64,000 bases of DNA from Meghimatium bilineatum (lineage: Eukaryota; Mollusca; Gastropoda; Stylommatophora; Philomycidae): contig CM067298.1 of NCBI GenBank assembly GCA_034231615.1, positions 66,731,591-66,795,590 of the forward strand, given 5' to 3'. The translations under genes and the position numbers were made by a program. This document shows positions 1-59,270 of this stretch, one piece after another. Each line of letters starts with the position of its first letter. The stretch's first letter is position 1. The notes beneath the pieces were generated by a model that worked only from the letters and a program-made list of their open reading frames with translations, was not told the origin of the DNA and did not search any database.

Positions 1-2225
1 TCTGCTAGCAAAATTGGCAATCGATGAACCAGCTATAATTTTAACCGATTCAGGATAAAAATGACATGTTATTAGTAATTTGTAGATAAGAGTCATTCTC
101 ATTGGCGCTCGCAAATCTATAAAAATGAAACAAAGATTTTAGAATCTTTGAGAGAATTGGGATATGGCCATGGTTAATTTGTTTAAATTGCTGCATTGAG
201 AGAAAAACTCAGTTTTGAAAAACTATATTTAGTTTGCACTTTTAACTTATTGTATAGGGAAGCAACTTGTCTGAAAAATAAATTGATTCCTAAATAACAA
301 AAGTGAAATTCTTAATGCATATTCAAAGATATGGGCAGTAAATGTTAATACGGCAAGGCTCTTGGCGAAAGAAGGAGTCTGAATATTTCAGTCTGCATGT
401 GTGCATGTGTAAACTTGAACACGCACACAATCTCTCACACACACAAATATTTAGTAATACATATTCTTTGGTCTAATAGAGATTTGGACAATTACAATGG
501 ATGTGGAAAGAAGAATAATAGTTTACAAAAAGTAGCCTAGAAGACGAATATTCAGTGCACATGACATAAGACCAATGTATATGTCTGGAATGAAATAAAC
601 GATTTTGCTGGTCAATAACATTTAGAAATTGTGAAATATCCCAACATTGGACATGAGAGGCCACGATTCCTTTTCACCCATACTGTCCTGCATGAGACTA
701 AAAGAAGGGGTAAAATGCATTTATAATATCAAAACTGAGTAGGATTAAATTTCTCCACTCAAACCACTGAGAGGAATGGTGGATTTTTGCATTTCTAAAG
801 GGAAACACCTACAACCCTGAGGGATCTGGATTTGATGATGGATAAAAGATGCATATCATGCTAATTGGAATGCCTTTAGATAAATTTTTCTTGGGAAGGG
901 GTTGGAAGAAGAGACCTATCCCTACCAGGCACTCCCATAGGATACGGATAGTGGAAAGGCCTGCAGTCTATATAATCGAATCCGGAGTCCTAACCTGACT
1001 GAGTGATAGAAGGTGAAGATCAACTGTAATAAAGATGATCTAGAAAGAATGTCCCACGAGACAATTAACTACCGGTAGATGTTGCATTGGCAAGAGTTTT
1101 AGCTTGCAGCATAAATAAGATTTTTTAAAATCCTGCATGAATTACAATGCAGAATCCAATTATGAAAATAATAATAGGGAATTATACCAGGAAAGAGAAC
1201 ACAAGGATGATAATTTTTTAGGAATGATAATTTAGGAAAGAAACAATCAACAATGGTATGGTACCACAGGGACAGAAGTGGCGGAAACATGGCACACTGG
1301 AAAGAAATTATAGCCTATGCTCTCTTAAGAGGTTCAGTTGCTTAATGGTAGAGAATGTTCAGAAGTACTTATCAAACAACAATGGGTAAGACTACAGTAA
1401 AATTAGATGAAATGGTCTTTTATCAAAACAGGAGTCAGTGTTCTAAAAAGTACAATAATACCAACATTTTCTCCAAACACAAAGGACAAATGGTATTAGC
1501 TAAAGAAGAAAATGAAAATCTAAAACACACAACACACTGCACATTTGAAATTTAAATAAAATTATTAAGGAGACAGAATATAAATCATAGAAACATAGTA
1601 AGTTATTTTTAAATTTGGCCAATTTTTTTCACAATAACACTTTGTTTCACAGAATCTTTCACAGATAATCTTCTTAATGACTTATTAAGAAGAAGTCCTA
1701 AGAAGGCCTTTCATCTGTGGAAGGACTACTTATGGATGAAAAAATTATAATTTGTTTCTATTTTATACAATGTTGAAAATATGGACAGATAAAAAAACAC
1801 AATGAAGATATCTTGAAAATAATTCAAAAAAATATTAATCACTCAAATGGCAACTATTTTTCTCGCAGCAAGTGAAGAACACAAAAATAAATAACCAGCA
1901 GATACCCAAAACTGATTCATCAATATTCCTTAGCGTTACATTGAATACCAGACTCACCTGAAAACTAAATATTGGAAAAATACAAACTAAAGCCTTTCAA
2001 AATCTCCAAGAACCCTTTTTTTTTAAACTAGCTATCACATCCTGGATCACAAACTAAAAAATACTAAAACAATTATATACGAGCCAGTAAGTTGTCTACA
2101 ACTTACAGGCCTACCTAAGTTGACAGTCCCTTAAAGTATGTATCAGAACAAACCCCTTGGAGTGAAGGGGATGGAATAACAATATACATTCAGACCCATG
2201 GATATATATACAATATATATATCCA
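1..2225. other. No gene or clear element seen
   Basis: AT-rich sequence with short microsatellite-like patches (CA-rich near 420-450, TA-rich near 2205-2222). I see no exon with good splice sites, no recognisable element domain and no RNA gene. If gene 1 continues to the left, this is probably one of its introns or its downstream flank. Confidence 0.4.
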
Positions 2226-3835
2226 CACAAGCCTAGAGATATGATCAGAACACCAAGAGGGAAATTCTGCAATAATTATGATGCAGAAATTCAGGCAATT
2301 AGGATAAGTCAGTCAGTCCCTCTTTTACCAAGTTTGGCACATAGGGAGGATGTCATAGTTCTCCATGCTTGTCGGCCAGTTGCCAAGGAATGCAGGTCTT
2401 ATGCATTTATGCCTGTTGATTTCATAACAGTTCTTCTGAGCGTTGTTTCTGGTCTTCCCTGTTTTATTTTCCCGTCCGGTGTCCACATGAAGGCTTGTCA
2501 CCGAATTATGTCTTTCTTTATTCTAAGTATGTGGCCAATGTATGTCCAGCAAGATTTTCTGATGATGTTCGTCACATGTTCTTGTTATGTCTCCTCTCTT
2601 AGTATGCCATTTAATTTGAAATATTTCCAAATAGTAATCTTTCCGATTGTGATTTTTCTGAGGCATCTATTCTAGAAGGCAACTAACTTCTTATCCAATA
2701 TTGCGGTAGATTTCCAACTTTCACATCCATATGTCAATGATGGAATCACACTTGCATTGAATAGTCGCAGTTTGATGTTTACTTGCATTCTTCGATCTGC
2801 AGATATTTGAGTTTGTTAAAGGCGTGGAAGGCCTTTATTCGAGTCATGATTTCTGAGTTTGTATTCCAGTCTGCTGTTATCTTGCTTCCCAAATATACAA
2901 AATTTGAAACATCTAGTATATTATCGTCTAGTTTAATTGATTCTGTCAGACCGGCAAAGTTCATGATTTTCATTTTATGTTTATTTGAAGGCCTATCTAT
3001 TGCGCGAAAAATTTCTTATTGAGTCTTTCTGTTTTTTCTTGGAGATATTGGTGTGTTGAACTCAGTAGAGCAATATCATCTGCGAAGGTTAGATCTTCCA
3101 GGGTCTTGTTTATCCATTTGATTCATAGTTGTTTTTGGTCTGTGCATTTCCTCATCACCCAGTCAATCGCGATGCAAAACAGTATTGGAGACAACACATC
3201 CGTTTTACTACTGTTGTTACTGAAAACTACTTTCTGTTCTTACACAACAAGCTGTATCGGAGTAAAATCTTTCATGATATTGAAATATTTCATCAGGATG
3301 TTATTAGGACTTACAAAAACTACTTAATGAACTGATTTACCAGTATAGGGTAACCATGCAATGGATACCCTCTCACTGTGGAATACCAGGAAATGAAAAA
3401 GCAGACCAACTGGCTAAGGAAGGTGCTGCTGAAGACCAACCAGAAATACCAATCACCTACCATCAGAAAAAACAGACGATCAAGTCAATAAGAAAGCCAC
3501 AAACACCAATTTACACTTTCAATTTATATTTACACAAGATGACTAACATTGTGAACAGATTAAAACAAGTTATAATTCTACGCCTCAGAACAGGACACAA
3601 CGGACTTCGCAGTCACATGTATACAAAGTTCAAGATTGGCAACACGGCCATGTGTACATGCGGACAGGCAGTACAGAGTGGCAAACATACTTCAAGAGTG
3701 TTCTGATTATGAAACGCTGAGGCAGACATATTGGCCAGAGGAAACAATACTAGAATCAAAGCTCTATGGGCCACTGTGTGAACTACAAAAGACAGTGAGT
3801 TTTATTAACCTTCAGTATGCTGTGGGCGAGTTCAC
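2226..3835 (+). mobile_element. I/Nimb-like LINE, RNase H and C-terminal fragment, interrupted
   Basis: The plus strand encodes the end of a non-LTR retrotransposon polyprotein. The RNase H glutamate motif (NYDAEIQAI) lies near 2272-2300, and after an interruption the motif QWIPSHCGIPGNEKADQLAK lies at 3359-3418. A cysteine-containing C-terminal domain follows (RLRTGHNGLRSHMYTKFKIG). The insert at 2305-3302 is a minus-strand LINE flanked by the 7-bp direct repeat attagga (2298-2304 and 3303-3309). A 2-bp deletion near 3690, relative to the sister copy at 25.2-25.8 kb, shifts the frame of the final segment, which continues to about 3830. The element is inactive. Assignment to the I/Nimb/Jockey group rests on the RNase H domain and on the C-terminal domain typical of these LINEs. 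Confidence 0.8.
2305..3302 (-). mobile_element. LINE 3' fragment (reverse transcriptase C-terminal half)
   Basis: Read on the minus strand, this encodes the catalytic part of a LINE reverse transcriptase. It has VLSPILFCIAIDWVM near 3205-3145, the active-site motif LTFADDIALL near 3095-3065, FVYLGSKITAD near 2920-2890, and a typical LINE tail region ending near 2310. Several stops and frameshifts are present. The 3' end carries a short ACTG repeat (gtcagtcag). A second copy of the same 3' end lies at about 18140-18290. The fragment is 5'-truncated, interrupts the RNase H LINE of the opposite strand, and is flanked by the 7-bp direct repeat attagga. Confidence 0.8.
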
Positions 3836-6388: not shown

Positions 6389-6503
6389 CTGATGCTTCTT
6401 TGTTCCTCGAAATTCTTCTACGGATCTTTTGATAGCAATTTGTGTAAAAGTACTGCTCAATATGTCCAGCATGATGATGCAACACTGGCATGCGATGGAA
6501 CAA
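6389..6503 (-). CDS. Gene 1 cassette exon A7 (mutually exclusive type)
   Basis: This 115-nt exon has acceptor caactcag before 6503 and donor G|GTAAGT at 6388. It enters in phase 0 and leaves in phase 1 (38 codons + 1 nt). It starts LFHRMPVL, has the shared aromatic-Tyr-x-Asn core as FYTN, and ends in a basic run (KIRRRISRNKEAS). It is the seventh and most distal exon of a homologous array. A 663-nt intron separates it from A6, longer than the other gaps. An ATG-started reading in another frame across this exon does not fit the array. Function unknown; the basic second half could bind nucleic acid (inference). Confidence 0.82.
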
Positions 6504-7166
6504 CTGAGTTGGATGTAAAAGTGCTTTTTAAACCTATCTATGACACATTCACACGATTTCAATGACAGTGAGTCTTGTATGTGAGCCCTTTCTCAATATA
6601 GCAGCATTCAACTGTGACTGATATTTGGTCCATTAAAGTGACTTATTCATGGGTTGGATGGGAGACTTACCTGTTTTTACAGTGTTGAAAGAAGCCTTTA
6701 ATAATTATTTGAACAAATCTGACACAAGTTTATAAAATAATGTTAACAAAGGGACTTGATATTCCATGAAGAAACATAAAACTGTGATAGAAACTACAAG
6801 TGTTTGAACAAAAAACACACTGATAATTAAATTACTCCAGTGTAATACATTTTTAAAACAAATGAATTAGAAAGGGAAAATAATATTCACCATTTACTCA
6901 CAGAATGTTTACTTTTTTAATTCTAAGACACAACAAAACCATAGTAAACACTAATCAGCCCTTCTATCTCAACTGATAAGATATTTAGCCAAATTTCAAT
7001 CAAGGAAAACTATTCAGATGCATAAATGGAACAGCACAACAATGAAGACAAGATAGGGCTACACATAAAAAAAATTACTGAGAAATCAAGATCACATACA
7101 CCTTTTTGTTCTTAAAGATATATGTAAACCTTTGAAGCTAATGGGCTTAAGAAGCTGTGCACATAC

Positions 7167-7275
7167 TTGGCTGAAATCTGTCTCGATCCCTGTACATTCG
7201 CCGCATACTGTTAATATAGAAATTGTCCACCACTGACTCATATCTTGTTAGCAGAGAGGGCATTCGACGAAACAG
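7167..7275 (-). CDS. Gene 1 cassette exon A6
   Basis: This 109-nt exon has acceptor ttctcag before 7275 and donor A|GTATGT at 7166, a weaker donor than its sisters. It enters in phase 0 and leaves in phase 1 (36 codons + 1). It begins LFRRMPSL, carries FYINSMRRMYRDRDR and ends RFQP. Its core matches A4 and A5 at Phe/Met-Tyr-x-Asn and Arg-x-Met/Ile. The 3n+1 length means that splicing it to any other cassette would shift the frame. Confidence 0.82.
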
Positions 7276-7530
7276 CTGAGAACAGCAAATTAGACGGATC
7301 AGTCTCAGAAAACTGTTTTCCTGGCTATTTTATACATTTTCAACCTAAAATGTTACATCGAAATTCAAAGCTTTCGGAAGTATCACCTTTATGAAGAAGT
7401 GTTTGCCACAACAATCCAACCAAAAGCGCATGGAAAAATCAATATCAGCCATTCCTGTCTATTATACAGCAGTGGTGAATTCTTATTTTTAAAAGCCGTC
7501 ACAAGAAACCTTTGCATCTATCAAACTCAC

Positions 7531-7630
7531 CCGACTGACGCCTTAGTTGAATCTTTCTCATACTGTTAACATACATGTAGTGTTGTGTGCGTAGGTATGA
7601 GTATCTTAAGACTGGTAAACGTCTGAAAAT
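7531..7630 (-). CDS. Gene 1 cassette exon A5
   Basis: This 100-nt exon is the shortest of the array (33 codons + 1). I placed the acceptor at tatcacag, ending at 7631, because only that site gives the phase-0 start IFRRLPVL shared by the family. The nearer ttttcag at 7623 would put the exon out of frame. The donor is G|GTGAGT at 7530. The exon carries MYVNSMRKIQLRRQS. It is homologous to A1-A4, A6 and A7. Confidence 0.8.
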
Positions 7631-7881
7631 CTGTGATACATATTTGTTTCAGCTAAATTTAGTCAAAGTGCATTCAGTCTAGAATAAAAGCACTGTGGTG
7701 ATGAAATGGAATGGTTGCCAAGTCTAAACCCTTGAGATGAAATGTAGCATAATATTCTGTGTACCTAACTGCATAACAGCACAGATACATGATAGCTTGA
7801 GCGATCAACTATCAGCACCAATATAGAAGGGAGTAGTGTGGAGCTTATGTCTAGAGATCATCTACAAGATTCTTTACTTAC

Positions 7882-7993
7882 CCCTCACATTAGCTCTCAG
7901 GCGTCTTTTTTGCATTTTCCGTGTTGCGTTAACATAGAATGTCTCCAAAGCCCGTTTAGGGTGATTCATGAGGACAGGCATACGAAGGAATAG
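7882..7993 (-). CDS. Gene 1 cassette exon A4
   Basis: This 112-nt exon has acceptor caccag before 7993 and donor G|GTAAGT at 7881. It enters in phase 0 and leaves in phase 1 (37 codons + 1). It starts LFLRMPVL, has FYVNATRKMQKRRLRANVR and is highly basic at the C-terminal end. Its first eight residues are identical to those of A3, which suggests a recent duplication or strong constraint. Confidence 0.84.
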
Positions 7994-8218
7994 CTGGTGC
8001 GTTAAGAGGAATTTTTGAATAAGCAAGAGACAATGTAGATACCTCACAAATTGATCAATCATGCCTTTAGTGATGGTGTATAACAATAATTAAAGATATG
8101 GTTTGCAATCCCTTCATCAAGAAGCTCATCAAAAATCAGAGCAAAACCACATAATACACAACAACTACAAGCCAGGAAAAATAATACAATCCGGCGGCGA
8201 GGCAAATAGCGTACTCAC

Positions 8219-8333
8219 CAATACTTAATTGTCCTCGGCTGCGCCATCGACGGGAGTTTCTACTAGCATTCTCATAGAAAATGTGCTCCACTTTTAAACT
8301 GTTCATCCGTAACACAGGCATGCGTAGAAATAG
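8219..8333 (-). CDS. Gene 1 cassette exon A3
   Basis: This 115-nt exon has acceptor atatcag before 8333 and donor G|GTGAGT at 8218. It enters in phase 0 and leaves in phase 1 (38 codons + 1). It starts LFLRMPVL, has IFYENASRNSRRWRSRG and ends QLSI. It shares the common framework but has lost the Lys-Met pair found in most sisters. An ATG near 8321 opens the same frame but is internal and not needed. Confidence 0.84.
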
Positions 8334-8727
8334 CTGATATAATCAACAAAAGATGTTTCCTTGCAAAATGCCCATCAACAACTGACATATTCTATGTGTA
8401 ATCCCTTACAAACAGCAGGGACACCTGGAAACTGGGCCCAATATTACATATTACTTGCAGGACTTTATACGGCTACTTTTTCTTTATTTTACGTGTCAGA
8501 TGTACCTAATAATTTGTCCACAGATGGAAAATTCCCCAAAGAATATTTAACTATCACTATGACAAATATTAACTTCCGGAAATGAAATGTGACAGTACAA
8601 GAATGATAATCCTTATTCCACACCAGCAAAACAATTCCTATGGCTGACGTACATGGGGCTACAACACCAGCCCAAACTAGTCTTCCTGGTTTAAAAAAAA
8701 GTATAAAAACCTAAACAATAAACTCAC

Positions 8728-8839
8728 TGCAGTCTTTCTGTCTACATCGCCTTAGTGACATCTTTTTCATACTGTTGGCATAGAGCAACGTCTCAACACG
8801 CACAGGATCATGAGAAAGTAGAGGTATCCTTAGAAACAA
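8728..8839 (-). CDS. Gene 1 cassette exon A2
   Basis: This 112-nt exon has acceptor ctgtcag before 8839 and donor A|GTGAGT at 8727. It enters in phase 0 and leaves in phase 1 (37 codons + 1). It starts LFLRIPLL, has LLYANSMKKMSLRRCRQKDC and so keeps the Tyr-x-Asn-Ser-Met core. The RRCR sequence near the end is shared with A1, so A1 and A2 look like the closest relatives. Confidence 0.84.
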
Positions 8840-9233
8840 CTGACAGATAACACATATAGGTTCAATCAAATCAGATGGAAAGCAGCAATTAATGAGAATC
8901 TACTGAAAGAGTCCTTTTGTTACTGTTCTAAACAAGTGAGCCCTTTTGACTTTTTAAGAGTATAACTACAGACTGCAACAGCTGTATATTCTTCATGAAA
9001 TATTTTGCCAGTCAATTATTATAGAAACACTTCCCTAAAGAACCTATAGTGACAGTCATTAACTGTAGAAGTCATTTGCAGTCACTAAAACAAAATAGGA
9101 CATCATGTATCTGTTATTGTATAACAATCTATATGCTTACCTTGCCTATGAACTAGAAATTAGCTTTCCACAATTTCATAAGTGATGGCTACAGACATAT
9201 TTTATTCCTTGAAGAACACTGTGTTTTACTTAC

Positions 9234-9339
9234 TTTTATGTCTACATCGTCTGTATGACATTTTGGCACGACAATTTTTCAAGAAATAATGTCTTGTGCG
9301 CTCAAGGTCGAAATTCAAAATGGGAGTCCTCAAGAATAT
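9234..9339 (-). CDS. Gene 1 cassette exon A1
   Basis: This 106-nt exon has acceptor tctgccag before 9339 and donor A|GTAAGT at 9233. It enters in phase 0 and leaves in phase 1 (35 codons + 1). It begins IFLRTPIL, has HYFLKNCRAKMSYRRCRHK and is the first cassette met after the microexons. It is the most divergent at the Tyr-x-Asn core (FLKN). Confidence 0.82.
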
Positions 9340-10405
9340 CTGGCAGAGTATTGTACTATAAATTAAAGTGCTACCAATGAATAAATTATAATGTTGATGT
9401 GAGCCCTTCTGTCTTATTGGGGGGAAAAGCAGGAAACAGATACCTTACAGCACACTTCCAACTGCTTAACATTATTCGCAAAAATTTATTTTCTCACAAA
9501 AACTGCATTTGTGTTCCAGAAAATTATAGAAAGAGTGTTCAAGAATGACCATCTTCCAACTTTAAATTCAATGGTATAATTTGACTAGAATTTAAAATAT
9601 ATAAAAATCACTGCCGTAGGATATTTCCACATGCACTAAAACATTTTACACTTACAGTACTATTGACAGTAATCTATTTAGGTTGTGCATGTATGAATTT
9701 TAAAATATATGCCTTAAAGTCTGAACTAATTGGTTCCAGAACGTGGTGCACAGAACCAAACCCCTATTTAAAATGTATCTGCCAAGATATATGAAAGTAT
9801 TATGACAAAGCTATGAGCTATATTCAAGCAAATGAATTACATCCTTATGTTGTTGCCAACACAAAATGTGGCCCAGGGAAACGGAAACATAAATTCATTC
9901 ACTGAACTTGCGTGTTCTATTTTTTTATGAAACACTTAACATACACAAGCTACTAGGGTGTCAATCATGCGGAATAAATTTTCAGCATAACCTCATGGGG
10001 CTTGGAATTAATGATTCCCATGAATCTGAAATTTCTGTTCCATTTCACCATCTTTTCCTGATATAAATTGCCATTACGTAATAGAGAAATGTGATAAAAT
10101 GACAAAATAATACAAAGTGTTTTTAACAAGAGCAGAAAGGTTACAAAGTTCACATGATACAAAACACCCAAATACAAAAAGTTATTGTAATAAAATTGTT
10201 GATTTCAATTTGTAAATGTAAGAAAACACACAAAACTTACTGTAAGTTCCCTATATTCCACTTGTAAGTAATTTTAGATGTTTTTTACAAGCACTCTGAT
10301 GTGTCATACTGCCATCAAGTGTATAAATGCATCATCTGATTTTGGTGTTTAAAGATTTGGAGGGCTAGGCATCGTCTATACTCATAACAATAAAAAATCA
10401 CTTAC
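9340..10405. other. Intron of gene 1 before the cassette array
   Basis: AT-rich sequence between the second microexon and cassette A1. No repeat family seen elsewhere in the window was recognised here. A donor-like site near 10235 has stop codons in every upstream frame and was not accepted as an exon. Confidence 0.5.
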
Positions 10406-10456: not shown

Positions 10457-12152
10457 CTGATTTAATAAATTTAACCACTAAAGTAAACTTCAATCAATGG
10501 CAGTGTTCAGAGACAATGAAGCAACTCTGCAAGTGAATTCCTCTATACTGTTCCAAATATCAGCAGTTAAGTTCTTTACACACAAGTGACAAAAATGATA
10601 GATTTCAAACACTGCATAGTTCAAGAAAAAGATATTCAAGATTTCCCACAAAAAAAGTGCTAGCCTGCAGAACAAGGACCTACTCTACAGCAATGAGGAA
10701 AGACCTACTTTATGAAAGTGGAACAGACCTACCAAAGACCTAATCTTAGACCTCAAGGTGCTCAGAAATTTTAACTGACTGATGTAAGGGATTACAACCA
10801 AAATAGTACCTATCTCTAACTTTTTTCTTTTTCATAATACTGAAGGACATTGCCAAAATATTGAATGCCAAAAAAATATGGCTTTCTGTGTTCACTAGCA
10901 ATTTGGATAATTAAAAAAATGTTTGTTTCACCACAGCACCAAAATCAAAAGGGCTCTTTATCCTAACAATATAGTTGCTCTTGTTTCATTAAATGCATGG
11001 TTATCTTAACATATAAATAATATAAAAACAATATCAACATCATTTCATCAATGTCATATGTAAGGCTCATGAATAAACTTTACCGCAAGATTCAATGTGA
11101 ACCTATTGAATCCTGAAAGGAAACTTCAAAATAATCCACTTTATTGTACTCAAGTGTTTCCATGTGCTCAATTCCTCACCACTGCAAAGAGGTTCAGTCA
11201 AAGCATGCAACTCTACTCAAATGAAATACCCAGGAACCTCATAGTTTCTTATAGTTTATTTTTAATAAGATATTTTGGCCTAATGTTGAATTCAATCTCT
11301 TAGGGAATACATGGCAAATAACAAATCAAAACATTGTTTGCCAGTCTCATACATGAGCTTTACATTTACATTAAATTTTCTAAGCACAACATACCAAAAT
11401 ACCCCACTGTGTAGATTCACAAGTACTTTTACAATCATCCATCTCCCCACACTATAAATTAGAATTTTAACGATTCTAGCAGATTGCCATTTTACAGCTG
11501 TCACCTGCAAGACCAAACCACATCAAGGTGGAGAGGGTCAGCTCTGGGGTATGATCTAGTACTTTTAACTTGCTAACAGCTCAAATCATTGCAAATTTCT
11601 TACAAATTATTCACGTTATCCCTAATTGGGTGGAAATATCATCAGATGCTAGTGCACTATTTAATCGTCTAAATGTTCTCTATTCAACTCTCTTCAGTCA
11701 ACACAGCTGAACATATGAATATTTCTAACTCATGAAAATGTGAATGCAGCAACCTCAATTAAAACTCACTCTTGGGTATGATAAGCTTATGAGCTACCTT
11801 TATTTTTTTTTAACATACTTAGAATATACTGAATATTGTGATGTCTGTTAATTTACTCACTAATACCATACTCATACCCTATACCACAAGTGATATTTGT
11901 GTATTAAACGTTGCCACAGTATGACCTTATTATCACCAGATATAATCAATTCTTTGGTGAGTTGTGCTTAGAAATACAGCAAAATAGTCAGTCAAATAGC
12001 ATTGCACAAACTTTTTTAAATGTTTCATTAGGCCGAAAACTTTCATTTTGTTCATTTTTAGTTTTGCTTACAACTTCTATGCAATGCTATTTATTAAATC
12101 AGTTATTATGCATCTAATTAATACATTATCTAATTGTATATCAGACACTTAC

Positions 12153-12188
12153 TCCAGATGCATCGTCATATAATGATGAAGTGGATGT
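12153..12188 (-). CDS. Gene 1 candidate microexon E5
   Basis: This 36-nt candidate has acceptor atactgtcag before 12188 and donor GGA|GTAAGT at 12152. It is phase 0 on both sides and encodes TSTSSLYDDASG. It is serine/threonine-rich and acidic, unlike the basic E6. Its position and phase fit the gene 1 chain, and it could be optional since its length is a multiple of three. Short length makes a chance match possible. Confidence 0.55.
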
Positions 12189-18377: not shown

Positions 18378-18458
18378 CTCTGCCAGTGCTTTATCAAAAA
18401 GCTCTTTGTCACGCTTCCCTGTAAAAGGGTACATTGCATGAGCTTCTCGCATATTACG
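18378..18458 (-). CDS. Gene 1 exon E4
   Basis: This 81-nt exon has acceptor ttttttcgacag before 18458 and donor GAG|GTAAGT at 18377. It is phase 0 on both sides and has 27 codons. It encodes RNMREAHAMYPFTGKRDKEL followed by FDKALAE, a charged and probably helical segment. Joined to a cassette the product reads DKALAE-LFLRMPVL, so the variable segment continues a helical region. Its phase matches the exon before (26501-26574) and either microexon or cassette after. A 6-kb intron on the left and an 8-kb intron on the right are full of repeats. No homologue is recognised. Confidence 0.82.
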
Positions 18459-26500: not shown

Positions 26501-26574
26501 CAAAAATGTTAAATGCTGATCTGTTCCTTTCCTATAATACATTTCTAGCTCTTCTTGTTGGGCACGCGTGAGAG
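26501..26574 (-). CDS. Gene 1 exon E3
   Basis: This 74-nt exon has acceptor actcccacag before 26574 and donor TTG|GTAAGT at 26500. Two bases complete the codon split from E2, then 24 codons encode LTRAQQEELEMYYRKGTDQH followed by LTFL, ending in phase 0. The charged, leucine-containing pattern suggests a helix that continues into E4. Splice sites on both sides are good and the joined frame is open. No family recognised. Confidence 0.82.
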
Positions 26575-32215: not shown

Positions 32216-33183
32216 TTTCTGTTAAACTTGCAAATGTTATGCTCTTGGCTACAGTTTCTGTTTCATACTCTCCTCTGAAGTCGCATAGATTGTTTTAGGG
32301 TTTTACTTCCCTGAAGCTTTGTGTTACGCAGATGTGAGGTTGCCTCCTGTTATTGCTAATTGTCTGCTTTTTCGTTACCAGTGGTGCCACAGCGAGCATT
32401 AATATTTAAACAAATGTTGAAAAACCTGTTGTTCTGAGTTCACCTTTCATTTTTATCAATCCAATGATTATCCTGGTAAATTTTTAAGTTATAGCAAATG
32501 TCTACAAATGTAATCTAGCCATAGACACCCAATGTCGACATATGTTTACATTGAGGTAGCCATTTGTAATCATGGACAACAATCGTCCATGTTAATTTCC
32601 CATCATGCTCTTATATTTTCTGAGTGATTATCCCTGAATTTTTCGGAGATATAAATACCTAGTCGTAATTTGTTTGACGTGTTCACGTTTGCAAGCCATA
32701 CTGTATGAACATAACGTCGGTGAAGCTATTGTTTAGTAATTCTTCATGGATGATGATTCAGATGAAGACAATTTGCAAGGCTTTAGTGTTGCAGGAACTG
32801 TAGATCAACATATGGTTGAGGGATATGTTGATAATATTTAATAGTAAAGTAAATGCTATCATTTATGATGAATTTGCTGAGCTGGGTTTGCTACAGATAG
32901 GCCTACAGACGACCTTGAAATTGGAAATCCTTAGTGTGCATTTGTCCACAACTGTCCATCTTTGCTGTCCACAACACTGACACACACATGCAAAAGACAC
33001 CTCCAAATCAGATCCACTTATCTCTACTGTCTTCGAATTTGAAATCATAACTCAAATTAAAAAAATTATGCCAAAAAAGCAAACTAGTGCAGAAAAACCA
33101 GAAGTCATAAGAAATGACCGCATTCCAGAGGAAGTATGCATTTTTCTCTGAGTTAAAAAGCTACTAGTTAAAAATGAACTTAC
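32216..33183. other. Gene 1 intron, nothing recognised
   Basis: Intronic sequence between exons E3 and E2. No second exon with matching phase and no repeat shared with the rest of the window was recognised here. Confidence 0.45.
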
Positions 33184-33336
33184 TTGATGGGTCTCCTGCT
33201 CCCTCTAAAGAGCTTGCATACATATCTTGCTGCTGCGGTGCTGGACCACCAGCAGCACTAGCATAATTGGAAGGACTTTGATGTAGCATCACAGGGTAAG
33301 TAGGGGCTGCTGGTTGGCTTTTGCCTCTTCCAGGAC
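33184..33336 (-). CDS. Gene 1 exon E2
   Basis: This 153-nt exon has acceptor tttaccattag before 33336 and donor A|GTAAGT at 33183. It starts and ends in phase 1. It encodes a low-complexity, Pro/Ala/Gln/Ser-rich stretch beginning PGRGKSQPAAPTYPVMLHQS and ending SSLEGAGDPS. Such composition is common in disordered regions of nuclear regulators (inference). It could be skipped without shifting the frame because both phases are equal. The join with E1 makes a Gly codon and the join with E3 a Thr codon, both open. Confidence 0.82.
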
Positions 33337-39049: not shown

Positions 39050-39858
39050 CTGAAGTTTGATTACTCCCTGAGTATGAACAACTGCTTTGATTAGACATAT
39101 ATTCCTCCTTAACAATACTAATGTCAGGATCAATTACTGGTTTCTGGTCAACCTCTGATGAATTCTGATCGTCAAGAAAATTGGATGCAAAGTTTTGACT
39201 GTCATCTTCTTCACCGCCTGAATGAAAGACATTTGCACTTTCGTAATCGTCCCCACTACTGCCTAATTGACCACTGTTCAAAGGACTAGGTAATATGTCA
39301 TTTCTTCCCATTTTTGCAGCTGGACCGCCTGAGTCATGATATCGGGGTGATTGGGGCATACCAATCTTAGCTGGGCTTCCAACTTTACCAATATGTCTAC
39401 GCTGAGGTGGTGTGCGTGGACGTTTTGAACCAAGAGGATAAGAGTCTGGTGGACCTGCTCTTGTAGATGGACTTCTGTATGACCCTATTGTGCCAACATT
39501 TGTACTATTTGGCACTGCCTGGCTTGATTCTTCCATGACAATTGTCTCTTCATTTTGTTTTTCAGGTTCTGCTGCCTTTTTTGGTGGTGGCTTTGGTTTT
39601 TCTGCTGGCTGTGCATGAAAGCTATTGCTAATGAATGTAATGGAGTTGTCATTCTTACATACTTTTTCATTTAGCACATAATCCACTTTTTTTCCTGTAT
39701 CACTGTCAACATTAATGTAGATGTGACCTATAACTTCTACTCCTTTATCAAAATCAACATAGCCATTGCATAACGACTGCAAAAACTTGGCCAGAGATGC
39801 GATGAACTTTGACGACGAGTCGAAATCCATGATAAAGATAGATCCACTGCCTCACAAT
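39050..39858 (-). CDS. Gene 1 exon E1 with the start codon
   Basis: The coding part runs from ATG at 39830 to 39050, giving 260 codons plus one base. Donor G|GTGAGT. An acceptor-like tttctacag ends at 39859, and an in-frame TGA lies between it and the ATG, so this ATG is the likely start and the leader is probably spliced. Residues 1-75 look folded (FIASLAKFLQSL, then VEVIGHIYINVDSDTG). Residues 78-92 are Pro/Lys-rich. 134-146 holds GSKRPRTPPQRRH, like a nuclear-localisation signal. 193-225 is acidic. 240-243 is VKEE, which fits the SUMO consensus. The pattern suggests a nuclear regulatory protein (inference). I do not recognise the family. It is the longest open frame in the window without retroelement features. 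Confidence 0.85.
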
Positions 39859-45289: not shown

Positions 45290-46135
45290 AAGTGATGATG
45301 ATGGTGTCCTTCGCTAGCGAAGATTAGCATGGCATGAGAAAAAATAAATGTGATGAACAAGTAGAGAAAAAAAACATTTGTGATTGTCTAATTTCGTTTG
45401 TGAGTTCGTAGATGTCCGATTCGTGCCAGGAAAGTTCTAATGTAGTGCATGCAGGAGCGCAGAGGGTTTGGGGTAGGAAAGTTTTTGCAATTATCATTCC
45501 ACTTTCCGTCGCTTGCAAATTGCCTGTAGTGTTCATTCTTTTTATAAATTTAGTAACGGCAGCAGCGATCTGGGTGTGCCAAGTTGAGAGATCAGTGGCT
45601 GTAGTCTCCCAGGAGCTAGGATCGATGCTGCAGTGTTGGAGAGGAGTATTTAGGCTATCCATAAAGCGCTTTTTCTGCCCTCCGCTTGAACGTTTACCAT
45701 CGCACATAGGCCTATGCCCATAGAATATCTTTGGAAGGCGCTTGTTTGGCATACGGACGATGTGGCCAGTCCAGCGGAGTTGGAACCTAGTCAGCAGGGC
45801 ATGGATGCTTTGCATGCGGGACTTTTGAAAAATTTCCGTTTCTGGTACTAGATCCTGCCAACGTACTCCCATGAGGTTTCTTAGGCACCGAATGTGGAAA
45901 GAGTTAAGCTGTCGATGGTGTCTCGCATAGGCAGTCCACGAAGACGCAGCATAAAGCAGTGTTGATAGAAAAGGTACACGTCCAACTTAATTGTCAAATT
46001 GAGACCATGCCTGATCCGGACGTTGGCACGAAGACTACCGAATGCCACACTACCGTGAGCAATACCCAGGACAACATCCTCGTCAATTGTTGCAATTTGT
46101 GATAGGATGGTGACGAGATAATGGAAGTAAAGACT
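45290..46135 (-). mobile_element. LINE reverse transcriptase C-terminal half
   Basis: The minus strand encodes GSVAFGSLRANVRIRHGLNL near 46055-46000. Then come WQDLVPETEIFQKSRMQSIH, LRWTGHIVRMPNKRLPKIFY near 45785-45725 and QKKRFMDSLNTP. The final Cys-x2-Cys tail is frameshifted near 45450. The region 45324-45872 is open for 182 codons but starts inside the domain. Same LINE type as 24290-24895. Confidence 0.8.
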
Positions 46136-51375: not shown

Positions 51376-52539
51376 TATGTCTATACAGGAAGGTGGGCTG
51401 CCTCCATGAATTCAGTCGTCAGCAGGAGGTCCTCATGGTTGCCCCACAGCTTCACCTTCAGATCTGTCTCTTGGGGCCATATTTTGGTTCTCACATCATC
51501 AAAGAGTAGGCATGTCTGCAGAATATTTTCTGGAGTTTGGGGATCCTTTTGACATGGGCATTGGTCAGTTTGGGCAGCCTTAATTTTGTGGAGATGTGCT
51601 TGTAGTCTGCAGTGTCCTGTGTGAAGTCTAAAAATTGTGGTTTGTTGTGACCTGTTTAGCTTTAGAATAGGGTCCTGTGGAAAGTTACTGCCTGTTCTCT
51701 GACTCCATGTATGTTTGTATTTTCCTTTGAAGAGGGTTTTTGCTTCAGTCAGTGATATTCTGTGCTGGAATTGTTCCTTTTTTGCACCTGCTTTTGCCAG
51801 TCTGTCAGCTCCTTCATTTCCTGCTATTCCACGGTGTGCAGGGATCCACTGCAGCACAACTTTATTGTTGGCAGCCAGTTGATTTAGAAGTTCTACAGTT
51901 GTTTTTGTTAGATCTTTAGGTTCCTTTTGGATGGTATGGAGTACTGACATGCAGTCACACAAGAAGACTATGTTAGCTCCTTTGAGCCTCTGTTCCTCTA
52001 GAGCCTTTGATGCTTCCAAGATTGCTTGTAGCTCTGCCCTGTAATTTGTTGATAATTTGCGAGTAGCGATTGAGAGTTCTAGTTTTGGGGTGTTTGGTAT
52101 GAGTATTAGTATCCCAGCTCCTCCTTTCTTTACTGCACCCTCTAATGATCCATCTGTGAAGACATGAATCCACTGTGAGGTAGGGTATTGGGTATCTAGG
52201 GGATCAAGTGTTTTTGCCCTAAGGGCAGTAGGGGTTTCCATAGTTTTGCTCTCAATACCTGGTATTGTAAGTATCCTATCCTTCAACTTTCCTTAGTTGC
52301 CTCCTACGACATGCCTGGAAAGAAGACAGCATTTTCACCCTGAACTTGTAGTTCAGGCCCGACCACTACATGGGCCAGCAAAATGGATATAAGCATACCT
52401 ATTTAACAGAAGAGCTAGAGTACAACTAGATGGCTCATCATCATCACTAAGTGGCATCTCCACAATGAAGTTGTCTGCAACAGATCAACAACTCCTGTCT
52501 CTTGTCTTGGTGGTATACTCTGCTAGACTATAATCTGTT

Positions 52540-57973: not shown

Positions 57974-58599
57974 TCAGTCCTCTGTACCAAGATCAATGCT
58001 ATCTCCAGTGGGTGTTTCTGTTAAATGTAAACTAAAGGATAGGCATTCTGTGGTCTCAGAAGTAATGTCAGCTGATGAGCCCAAATCAATTGTGTCATTA
58101 TTGTTTGTTAGGTAGGCTGCAGATGCATCAATAGAACTTGTGGTTCTGGTTGGATGTGAGTTTATAAACTTTGATGAAGACGTGAAAGATTTGAGATTTG
58201 CTATTTGTGCTGCTGGACATGTCTTTCTGTGCATAGGCAAGCTGGTAATGTAAGCAAACTGTCTTCCACAAAGTTCACAAGAAAATGGTTTCTGACCAAG
58301 ATGTCGTCCATTCATGTGTCCTATATACTCACGCCTGGACGGCAATCGTTTACCACAGATTTCACATGCAAAGTTCATCTTTCTTTTCTCCTTTATCAAA
58401 GAGCCCTGCTGAATATGAATAATGTCAGAACTAGGTGGTAATGACTTTTGTGCAAACCTCAATAATGGTGTTGATGGATGAGGTTTCTGTAGGCCAGTGG
58501 AGTTTGAATTGAAATTGAATGTCGATGATGGTGGGAATAATGTCGATGCAGACAATGAAGGGAGTCTCCTTTTCCCTCTATGATTTTGCAAAGAAGAAG
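57974..58599 (-). CDS. Gene 2: terminal exon with two zinc fingers
   Basis: Acceptor ttatccacag ends at 58600. The exon starts with two bases of a split codon (phase 1), then about 207 codons to a TGA at 57974. A serine/proline-rich region comes first. Then FACEICGKRLPSRREYIGHM is a C2H2 finger (C-x2-C-x12-H-x4-H), and FSCELCGRQFAYITSLPMHR with a following KTC is a second finger of C-x2-C-x12-H-x3-C form. They are joined by a GQKPF linker. The tail is Ser/Thr-rich and acidic at the end. Such exons are typical last exons of nuclear DNA-binding proteins, including BTB zinc-finger genes, but no BTB domain is in view. The earlier exons are not identified. Confidence 0.82.
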
Positions 58600-59270
58600 C
58601 TGTGGATAAAAGTGTCAGGAGTGAGTCAAACTAGTTGAGTGCAATTATTTAATCATGAACACATTCCTATGGAGAATGCCATGAAAAGTGTTATAAACTA
58701 GTGTAGTGTTGTAATAAAACAAACAAGGTTAGATATATATCTACTGAAGCAACCAAAATTTATTTTTAAAACGTTAAATAGCAACAATTTTATGTTGAAT
58801 AATAGACAGGATCAATGTTTGACTCCGCATGGCTTGTATCTGTGGGTCTCACCAATGGCCAACTAGACATATCACTCATGCAACACAGAACCTTAGGAGA
58901 TGATGTGCCGCTATATTGAGGTTTTCTTCTTATAGAAGCTTCATGGCACGTCATCTATACAATTATGCTTCTCATGCTTTTATTTTGTTGTTGCAATGTG
59001 TTTTATGCTATGTTATTTTTAGATATATATATGCACTCTCAGTAGTTGGGAGGAGCCAGAGATATACTATGCTGCACTGGGGAGGAGGAAACTGACAGCA
59101 CTGTTTTTTTCCTGTGGCTGAGGCCCATTACAGAGACACAGTGATTCAGGACGTGACAACCCTTTTAACTTGGTTGCATGCATAGAGCAATAGAGAAGTT
59201 CGGCATAACCAGTAGTCAATTAGTGGCAGGAATATGCACAGTGAACCATATCTTGACTGCAGGAATGCTG
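58600..59270. other. Intron of gene 2, nothing recognised
   Basis: The sequence upstream of the zinc-finger exon acceptor. No further exon recognised. Confidence 0.4.

Follow-up and report, generated by a model that had tools for sequence, protein, structure and literature searches.

A 64,000-nucleotide window of the Meghimatium bilineatum genome (assembly GCA_034231615.1, contig CM067298.1, here C1:66,731,591-66,795,590) carries on its minus strand part of a gene whose mRNA is modelled as a single cassette flanked by four upstream constant exons and, on the 3' side, constant exons A and B. The cassette comes from a tandem array of at least 39 homologous exons, spread over about 50 kb, that passes the window's left edge. 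We examined the window plus 100 kb on each side (264 kb) and use window coordinates throughout, with negative values beyond the left edge; genome-wide searches covered 1.6 Gb in 32 contigs. A second copy of the locus is present on another contig (C2). Fifty matches to the mollusc hemocyanin beta-sandwich family, on contigs C15 and C22, agree with a molluscan genome. An arthropod origin was rejected, although a further hemocyanin search, which matched nothing anywhere, says little on this by itself.

A sequence-only reading of the window had described an array of seven exons with good splice sites, phase-0 starts and 3n+1 lengths. The seven exons were recovered at the coordinates given, with AG acceptors, GT donors, phase-0 starts and lengths of 106, 112, 115, 112, 100, 109 and 115 nt, but they are a fraction of the array. 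A profile of the seven finds its own members at E <= 7e-19 within the window, where the next-best open reading frame (ORF) has E = 0.17. Over the 264 kb it detects 11 extra minus-strand copies at E < 0.01 and none on the plus strand; 10 of them lie beyond the left edge and one, cassette 8, straddles it. Iteration of the profile extends the set to 39 cassettes, the first starting at 9339 and the last at -41004, and the acceptor AG adjoins the same motif position in each. The array region was also scanned for a pyrimidine-AG followed, in an open frame, by [LIMFV]xx[RHKQ]xPx[LVMI]. Its minus strand yielded 39 matches, comprising 38 of the 39 accepted cassettes and one extra candidate. The same scan gave no matches on the plus strand of the array region and none in a 100-kb minus-strand control.

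All E-values of the iterated profile were obtained with most cassettes already included in it. The cassettes at -25129 (E 0.46) and -35332 (E 0.57) are weak in this profile and were retained on acceptor, donor and frame; that at -25129 was also retained because an 84% identical cassette occurs in the homologue P0007. Minus-strand matches at 85998, 23211, 15872, 13649, -58636 and -68227 were dropped from the set, as was one plus-strand ORF. A possible diverged 40th cassette (VQLRMPFL...) at -19727 on the minus strand falls outside the profile set and is excluded from the count.

Identity between cassettes of the C1 array averages 32% and falls as low as 17%. Positions 1, 4, 6 and 8 (L, R, P and L) are nearly fixed, and most later positions vary on a basic background, as expected of a scaffold with a variable face. 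The cassettes were said to end basic, and all 39 do carry a net positive charge (+3 to +10, mean +6.8). The Tyr-x-Asn core ascribed to most copies fares less well: its Asn is invariant in the original seven and occurs in only 16 of the 38 cassettes tabulated by position (-25129 was left out of that table).

Cassette lengths range from 97 to 142 nt, and with a phase-0 acceptor a 3n+1 reading is possible for all 39. The best-scoring GT donor gives this length class in 37. The exceptions are the cassette at -36001, whose sole listed GT donor is weak and 3n+2, and that at -9899, for which no GT donor was listed. A GCAAGT donor, picked by eye for these two and for the cassette at -10181 (where the GT donors are weak though 3n+1), gives 3n+1 in each case, and the three appear to use GC donors. 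Two adjacent cassettes read into exon A meet a stop in all 38 pairs, whereas a single cassette does so in none of 39; the predicted frame shift on joint inclusion thus holds across the array. The exons are therefore tandem homologues sharing an entry phase and a length class, and their joint inclusion spoils the message, as in mutually exclusive clusters.

The constant part of the gene model is backed by the C2 copy and by snail and sea-hare proteins with exactly one cassette. Exon 1 is an open frame with an acceptor and a donor, is 86% identical on C2 and encodes the N-terminus common to the homologues. It cannot be joined straight to exon 4, since the phases clash, and we therefore searched for a 3n+2 linker exon. 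An earlier, stricter scan between exons 1 and 4 gave no candidate; exon 3 ranked top of 10 linker candidates by phase and splice sites and is 100% identical on C2. Exon 2 was located using homologue segments (68-69% identity). Exon 4 ends in phase 0, as the sequence-only reading had it, and 26 of its 27 residues are identical at the C2 locus. Comparison of the C1 and C2 loci uncovered exons A and B, and entry into exon A in phase 1 is what 3n+1 cassettes require. With cassette 4 the full join is open to the stop when exon A uses a GTATGT donor. The cassettes had been taken for a C-terminal segment; with two constant exons following them, they are internal.

Other joins were considered. Exons at 12153 and 10406 had been proposed, alongside exon 4, as sources of junctions into the cassettes, and were rejected: all eight inspected homologues that cover both exon 4 and a cassette belonging to this gene (P0001-P0008) go directly from the one to the other. 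Upstream zinc-finger exons were likewise rejected as members of the same transcription unit. Another N-terminal exon lies near coordinate 218,500, and we assign the zinc-finger exons to a separate gene on that ground.

A search with the joined protein, as the sequence-only reading had advised, retrieved gastropod homologues containing exactly one cassette. The query, which lacked exon 2, matched 302 proteins at E <= 1, of which 120 were listed. Leading matches are from Bradybaena, Biomphalaria glabrata (LOC106053932 isoform X11), Physella acuta (LOC131934887 isoform X11), Lymnaea stagnalis and Aplysia californica (LOC101860137 isoform X8); the closest relatives are named "uncharacterized protein" or "hypothetical protein" in the databases. 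The Biomphalaria protein P0003 is 67% identical over 98% of the query (E 1.2e-219). The gene belongs to the LOC106053932 group of gastropod genes with the MDFDSS N-terminal domain: this domain is followed, in order, by exons 3-4, a single cassette and the QFKSPG and DSFLQ 3' exons. Among the 15 of the 120 listed homologues that were inspected, 10 contain one cassette, none contains two, two skip the cassette and three end at or before the junction. P0007, P0008 and P0019 derive from contigs of at most 1,555, 2,047 and 1,694 bases; introns of this size would not fit on them, and the three are thus probably transcript assemblies.

Clusters at 90% identity contain 27 sequences for the first Bradybaena copy, 43 for Biomphalaria, 49 for Physella and 33 for Aplysia. 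Many of these are presumably cassette isoforms, because one-cassette variants would cluster together and isoform numbers reach X43. In the skipping proteins, P0009 (Biomphalaria isoform X43) and P0016, an out-of-frame splice from exon 4 to exon A changes the C-terminus. Such isoforms are possibly a default or regulatory product.

For six of the 10 homologue cassettes there is a C1 cassette matching at 61-86%, with the second-best at only 38-43% (Table 1). Set against the within-array mean of 32%, these cross-species matches suggest that the array had probably diversified before the snail lineages concerned separated, and that at least some cassettes have been kept individually across species. 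A narrower query of exons 3-4 plus a cassette retrieved 13 proteins; the nine that bear species names are all from gastropods, which we take to be heterobranchs. A homologue search with P0019 as query matched only P0019 itself.

Table 1. Coordinates of the gene, cassettes and candidate RNA-pairing elements on C1. Percentages are identities between a homologue cassette and the C1 cassette that it matches best.
Feature	Position	Strand	Details
Constant exon 1	39050..39858	-	ATG at 39830; 260 aa, MDFDSSSKF...; donor phase 1
Constant exon 2	33181..33336	-	GPGRGKSQ...GDPSS; phase 1 to 1; splice sites present
Constant exon 3	26501..26574	-	LTRAQQEELEMYYRKGTDQHLTFL; phase 1 to 0; present in homologues
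Constant exon 4	18378..18458	-	RNMREAHAMYPFTGKRDKELFDKALAE; phase 0 to 0; spliced to one cassette; present in homologues
Candidate docking site	10920..10966	-	47 nt; intron between exon 4 and cassette 1
Candidate selector, cassette 1	9401..9411	-	11-bp uninterrupted dock pairing
Cassette 1	9234..9339	-	106 nt; Lymnaea P0005, 63%
Candidate selector, cassette 2	8938..8953	-	16-bp uninterrupted dock pairing
Cassette 2	8728..8839	-	112 nt; Bradybaena P0001, 81%
Cassette 3	8219..8333	-	115 nt; clear selector not found
Cassette 4	7882..7993	-	112 nt; Biomphalaria P0003, 86%; longest uninterrupted dock pairing 6 bp
Candidate selector, cassette 5	7689..7701	-	13-bp uninterrupted dock pairing; overall duplex p = 0.22
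Cassette 5	7531..7630	-	100 nt
Cassette 6	7167..7275	-	109 nt; clear selector not found
Candidate selector, cassette 7	6583..6592	-	10-bp uninterrupted dock pairing
Cassette 7	6389..6503	-	115 nt
Cassette 8, first 32 nt	1..32	-	103 nt in all, ends at -71
Cassettes past left edge (31 more)	last starting -41004	-	
Cassette -4546 (among the 31)	from -4546	-	Physella, 73%
Cassette -25129 (among the 31)	from -25129	-	P0007, 84%
Cassette -33995 (among the 31)	from -33995	-	P0044, 61%
Constant exon A	from -49599	-	Entered in phase 1; found by C1/C2 locus comparison
Constant exon B	from -51200	-	Ends EIDPDDEDDI + stop; found by C1/C2 locus comparison

The second locus (C2:72,753,289-72,829,380, plus strand) holds cassettes, exon 4 and the same candidate docking site. 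In the parts of this locus that were fetched or searched there are at least nine cassettes, of which few have a clear one-to-one counterpart on C1. Compared between the two copies, exon 3 shows dN 0 and dS 0.35, and exon 4 shows dN 0.02 with dS saturated. Two cassette pairs have dN of 0.30 and 0.23 and dS of 0.95 and 0.64. The two best homologues are both from Bradybaena similaris, on two different long contigs, which fits the presence of the C1 and C2 copies. A genome duplication in Stylommatophora is reported in PMC12328838.

The intron between exon 4 and cassette 1 (the leader intron) encodes a candidate docking site, or dock, whose 47 nt are identical on C1 and C2; similarity drops in the outer flanks. 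The 131 nt around the dock have one other match in the genome, 87% identical, on C2, again between exon 4 and the cassettes. As in the Dscam1-type layout, there is one conserved dock between a constant exon and the first variant. The word AGGGCT occurs 52-104 nt upstream of 10 of the 39 cassettes, and the leader intron holds its complement within GAGCCCTTTTG. A ranking of raw duplex energies was dropped, as a control intron gave similar values; it was confounded by base composition and was replaced by shuffles and position controls.

In the duplex test, a 48-nt dock window was paired with the stretch 130 to 30 nt upstream of each of the 39 cassettes and compared with 300 shuffled docks. The mean duplex energy is -26.24 kcal/mol for the dock and -20.21 (sd 0.84) for the shuffles, and none of the 300 shuffles is as low. 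The mean z of the dock is -1.81 upstream of cassettes, against +0.16 for exons and -0.11 for downstream introns. Across 198 leader-intron windows the dock and its overlapping neighbor score -5.88 and -6.33, with the next at -3.16 (mean -0.69, sd 0.86). Individually, 21 of the 39 cassettes pair with the dock at p <= 0.05 and 14 at p <= 0.01, and on C2 the dock reaches p <= 0.05 for three of the seven cassettes tested. Uninterrupted dock pairings of at least 13 bp number nine, where 0.5 are expected. Different cassettes pair with different parts of the dock. Among the seven cassettes first noted, 1, 2, 5 and 7 have candidate selectors, and 3, 4 and 6 lack a long paired run. A second docking site after the array was considered and rejected, the best window of the trailer intron scoring -2.99 compared with -6.33 for the dock.

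At E <= 2e-8 the N-terminal exon has 14 matches in the genome, this gene included; C1 and C2 hold seven each and the other contigs none. These matches are an uncharacterized gene family with a highly conserved domain outside Pfam. In sibling genes with the same N-terminal domain the variable end consists of C2H2 zinc fingers, which seem to be attached at the same ...DPS position. From 57977-58630 in the window on to about coordinate 188,000, the minus strand carries rows of ORFs resembling C2H2 zinc-finger exons: 15 belong to one type (E <= 2e-7) and seven to the CPVxGC...HWxxKHE...PLTL type. These are probably alternative exons of a sibling gene, the one with the N-terminal exon near 218,500. 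No Pfam match to immunoglobulin or fibronectin domains was found in exon 1, in exon 4-cassette-A-B or in exons 3-4 plus cassette. The N-terminal exon has no Pfam match, and none of the 80 BTB matches in the genome is near the C1 or C2 locus; identity as a BTB gene was therefore rejected. A homeodomain-like cassette, considered by eye, was rejected for want of Pfam or PDB support.

The protein contains psi-K-x-E-type motifs (VKEE and IKYE), of a kind linked to SUMO, and a basic stretch, SKRPRTPP, noted by eye. Together with the uniformly basic cassettes and the zinc-finger siblings, these point to a probable nuclear role.

We consider it likely that this homologue of LOC106053932 contains at least 39 mutually exclusive exons governed by competing RNA pairing and encodes a probable nuclear DNA-binding regulator. 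In each mRNA a single 97-142-nt cassette would link the four upstream constant exons to the two constant 3' exons. The choice would most likely rest on long-range pairing: the dock in the intron before the array would bind only one selector at any time and so favor the cassette that this selector precedes, and the 3n+1 lengths would push double inclusions out of frame. The cassette would form the last, basic part of a small domain made of exons 3 and 4 plus the cassette, in the place occupied by C2H2 zinc fingers in the sibling genes. One gene could in this way yield dozens of versions of one protein segment. Tandem duplication with mutually exclusive choice, as the sequence-only reading proposed, is supported by the frame logic, the one-cassette relatives and the docking/selector layout, from which we infer one cassette per transcript in this species and dock-selector pairing in the cell.

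Several observations weigh against this explanation. Pfam and PDB yielded no convincing match to the N-terminal domain or to exons 3-4 plus cassette. Dock pairing is not significant at the 5% level for 18 of the 39 cassettes (3 and 6 included) or for four of the seven C2 cassettes, and paired runs of at least 8 bases are not in excess over shuffles (24 vs 16.5, maximum 25). Some cassette donors are weak and three were taken as GC donors, the cassette is skipped in P0009 and P0016, and four of the 10 homologue cassettes (P0002, P0006, P0008 and P0019) reach only 36-50% with no clear C1 orthologue.

Exclusivity could instead come from frame and nonsense-mediated decay alone, with the conserved intron element doing other work, for example as a splicing-factor site. 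The 3n+1 lengths suffice to spoil double inclusion and a recognizable selector is missing for some cassettes. However, the complementarity is confined to cassette-upstream regions and is particular to the dock among the 198 leader-intron windows, and the use of different dock parts by different cassettes would be needless for a protein site; we regard this alternative as improbable. It is far less probable still that most cassettes are decayed duplicates with few in use. The three GC donors, the several weak donors and the identities down to 17% could be read in that direction, but no cassette contains a stop and all are readable as 3n+1. The six cassettes matched at 61-86% in other sources, the excess of dS over dN in both C1/C2 pairs and the large 90%-identity clusters of the relatives also speak against decay.

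The cassettes could also be mutually exclusive and yet encode a protein- or RNA-binding surface, which would diversify partners and not target sites. Basic segments can bind RNA too, and no DNA-binding family match was found in Pfam or PDB. The C2H2 zinc fingers in the corresponding place of the sibling genes and the basic charge of all 39 cassettes argue the other way. We judge such a surface rather unlikely and, with modest confidence, favor a DNA-binding regulator with a swappable contact segment. A further proposal, which we put forward only tentatively, is that gastropods, independently of arthropod Dscam1, evolved a one-gene system in which competing RNA structures splice one of about 40 recognition segments into a transcription factor. 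Cells would thereby have a code of DNA-binding specificities, whether selectable or random, and the system would be Dscam's nuclear counterpart. If so, the duplicated copy would add further segments to the roughly 40.

To our knowledge, docking/selector control of very large mutually exclusive clusters is chiefly a feature of arthropod Dscam, a cell-surface receptor. For Dscam1 exon 6, PMC8042237 reports a single most-conserved docking site, placed after the constant exon and ahead of the first variable one, and a complementary selector preceding each variable exon. The snail gene is similar, with a large single-gene tandem array, one cassette expected per mRNA, a candidate dock before the array and candidate selectors upstream of cassettes. 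Unlike Dscam1, the host is a mollusc and not an arthropod, the cassettes are about 37 aa and selectors are recognized for only part of them. The lack of similarity to known domains indicates that the product, unlike Dscam, is not an Ig receptor. Chelicerate Dscam genes likewise have a large tandem cassette array, but of 5' cassettes in Ig-superfamily genes (PMC4835542).

The zinc-finger siblings (in this genome, and Biomphalaria LOC106064207 and Babylonia LOC143293577) share the N-terminal domain, have many database isoforms and have a variable end. They differ in that the variable part consists of C2H2 exons, is seemingly terminal and has no internal 3n+1 cassette array. The lola gene and other insect BTB zinc-finger genes combine a constant N-terminal domain with alternative DNA-binding ends. 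Here, by contrast, there is no BTB match at the locus or its C2 copy, and the cassettes are internal. We found no description of this gene or of a comparable mollusc array in the openly licensed PMC literature. The class of mechanism is already known; as far as searched, what is new is the gene, the phylum, the type of protein and an origin that appears to be independent.

An independent mollusc case in a probable nuclear regulator would, if true, show convergent evolution of the mechanism and its capacity to diversify nucleic-acid recognition. The array would also give a mechanism to genes listed in databases under dozens of uncharacterized isoforms. Because the locus is duplicated, with the dock identical in both copies and nearby sequence diverged, co-evolution of dock and selectors is directly testable.

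ORFs resembling reverse transcriptase/RNase H retroelement fragments (by eye) occur at window positions 3308-3703, 45327-45986 and 51384-52292 and elsewhere. A short dispersed repeat is also present, and both the retroelement-like ORFs and the repeat sit in introns and intergenic DNA.

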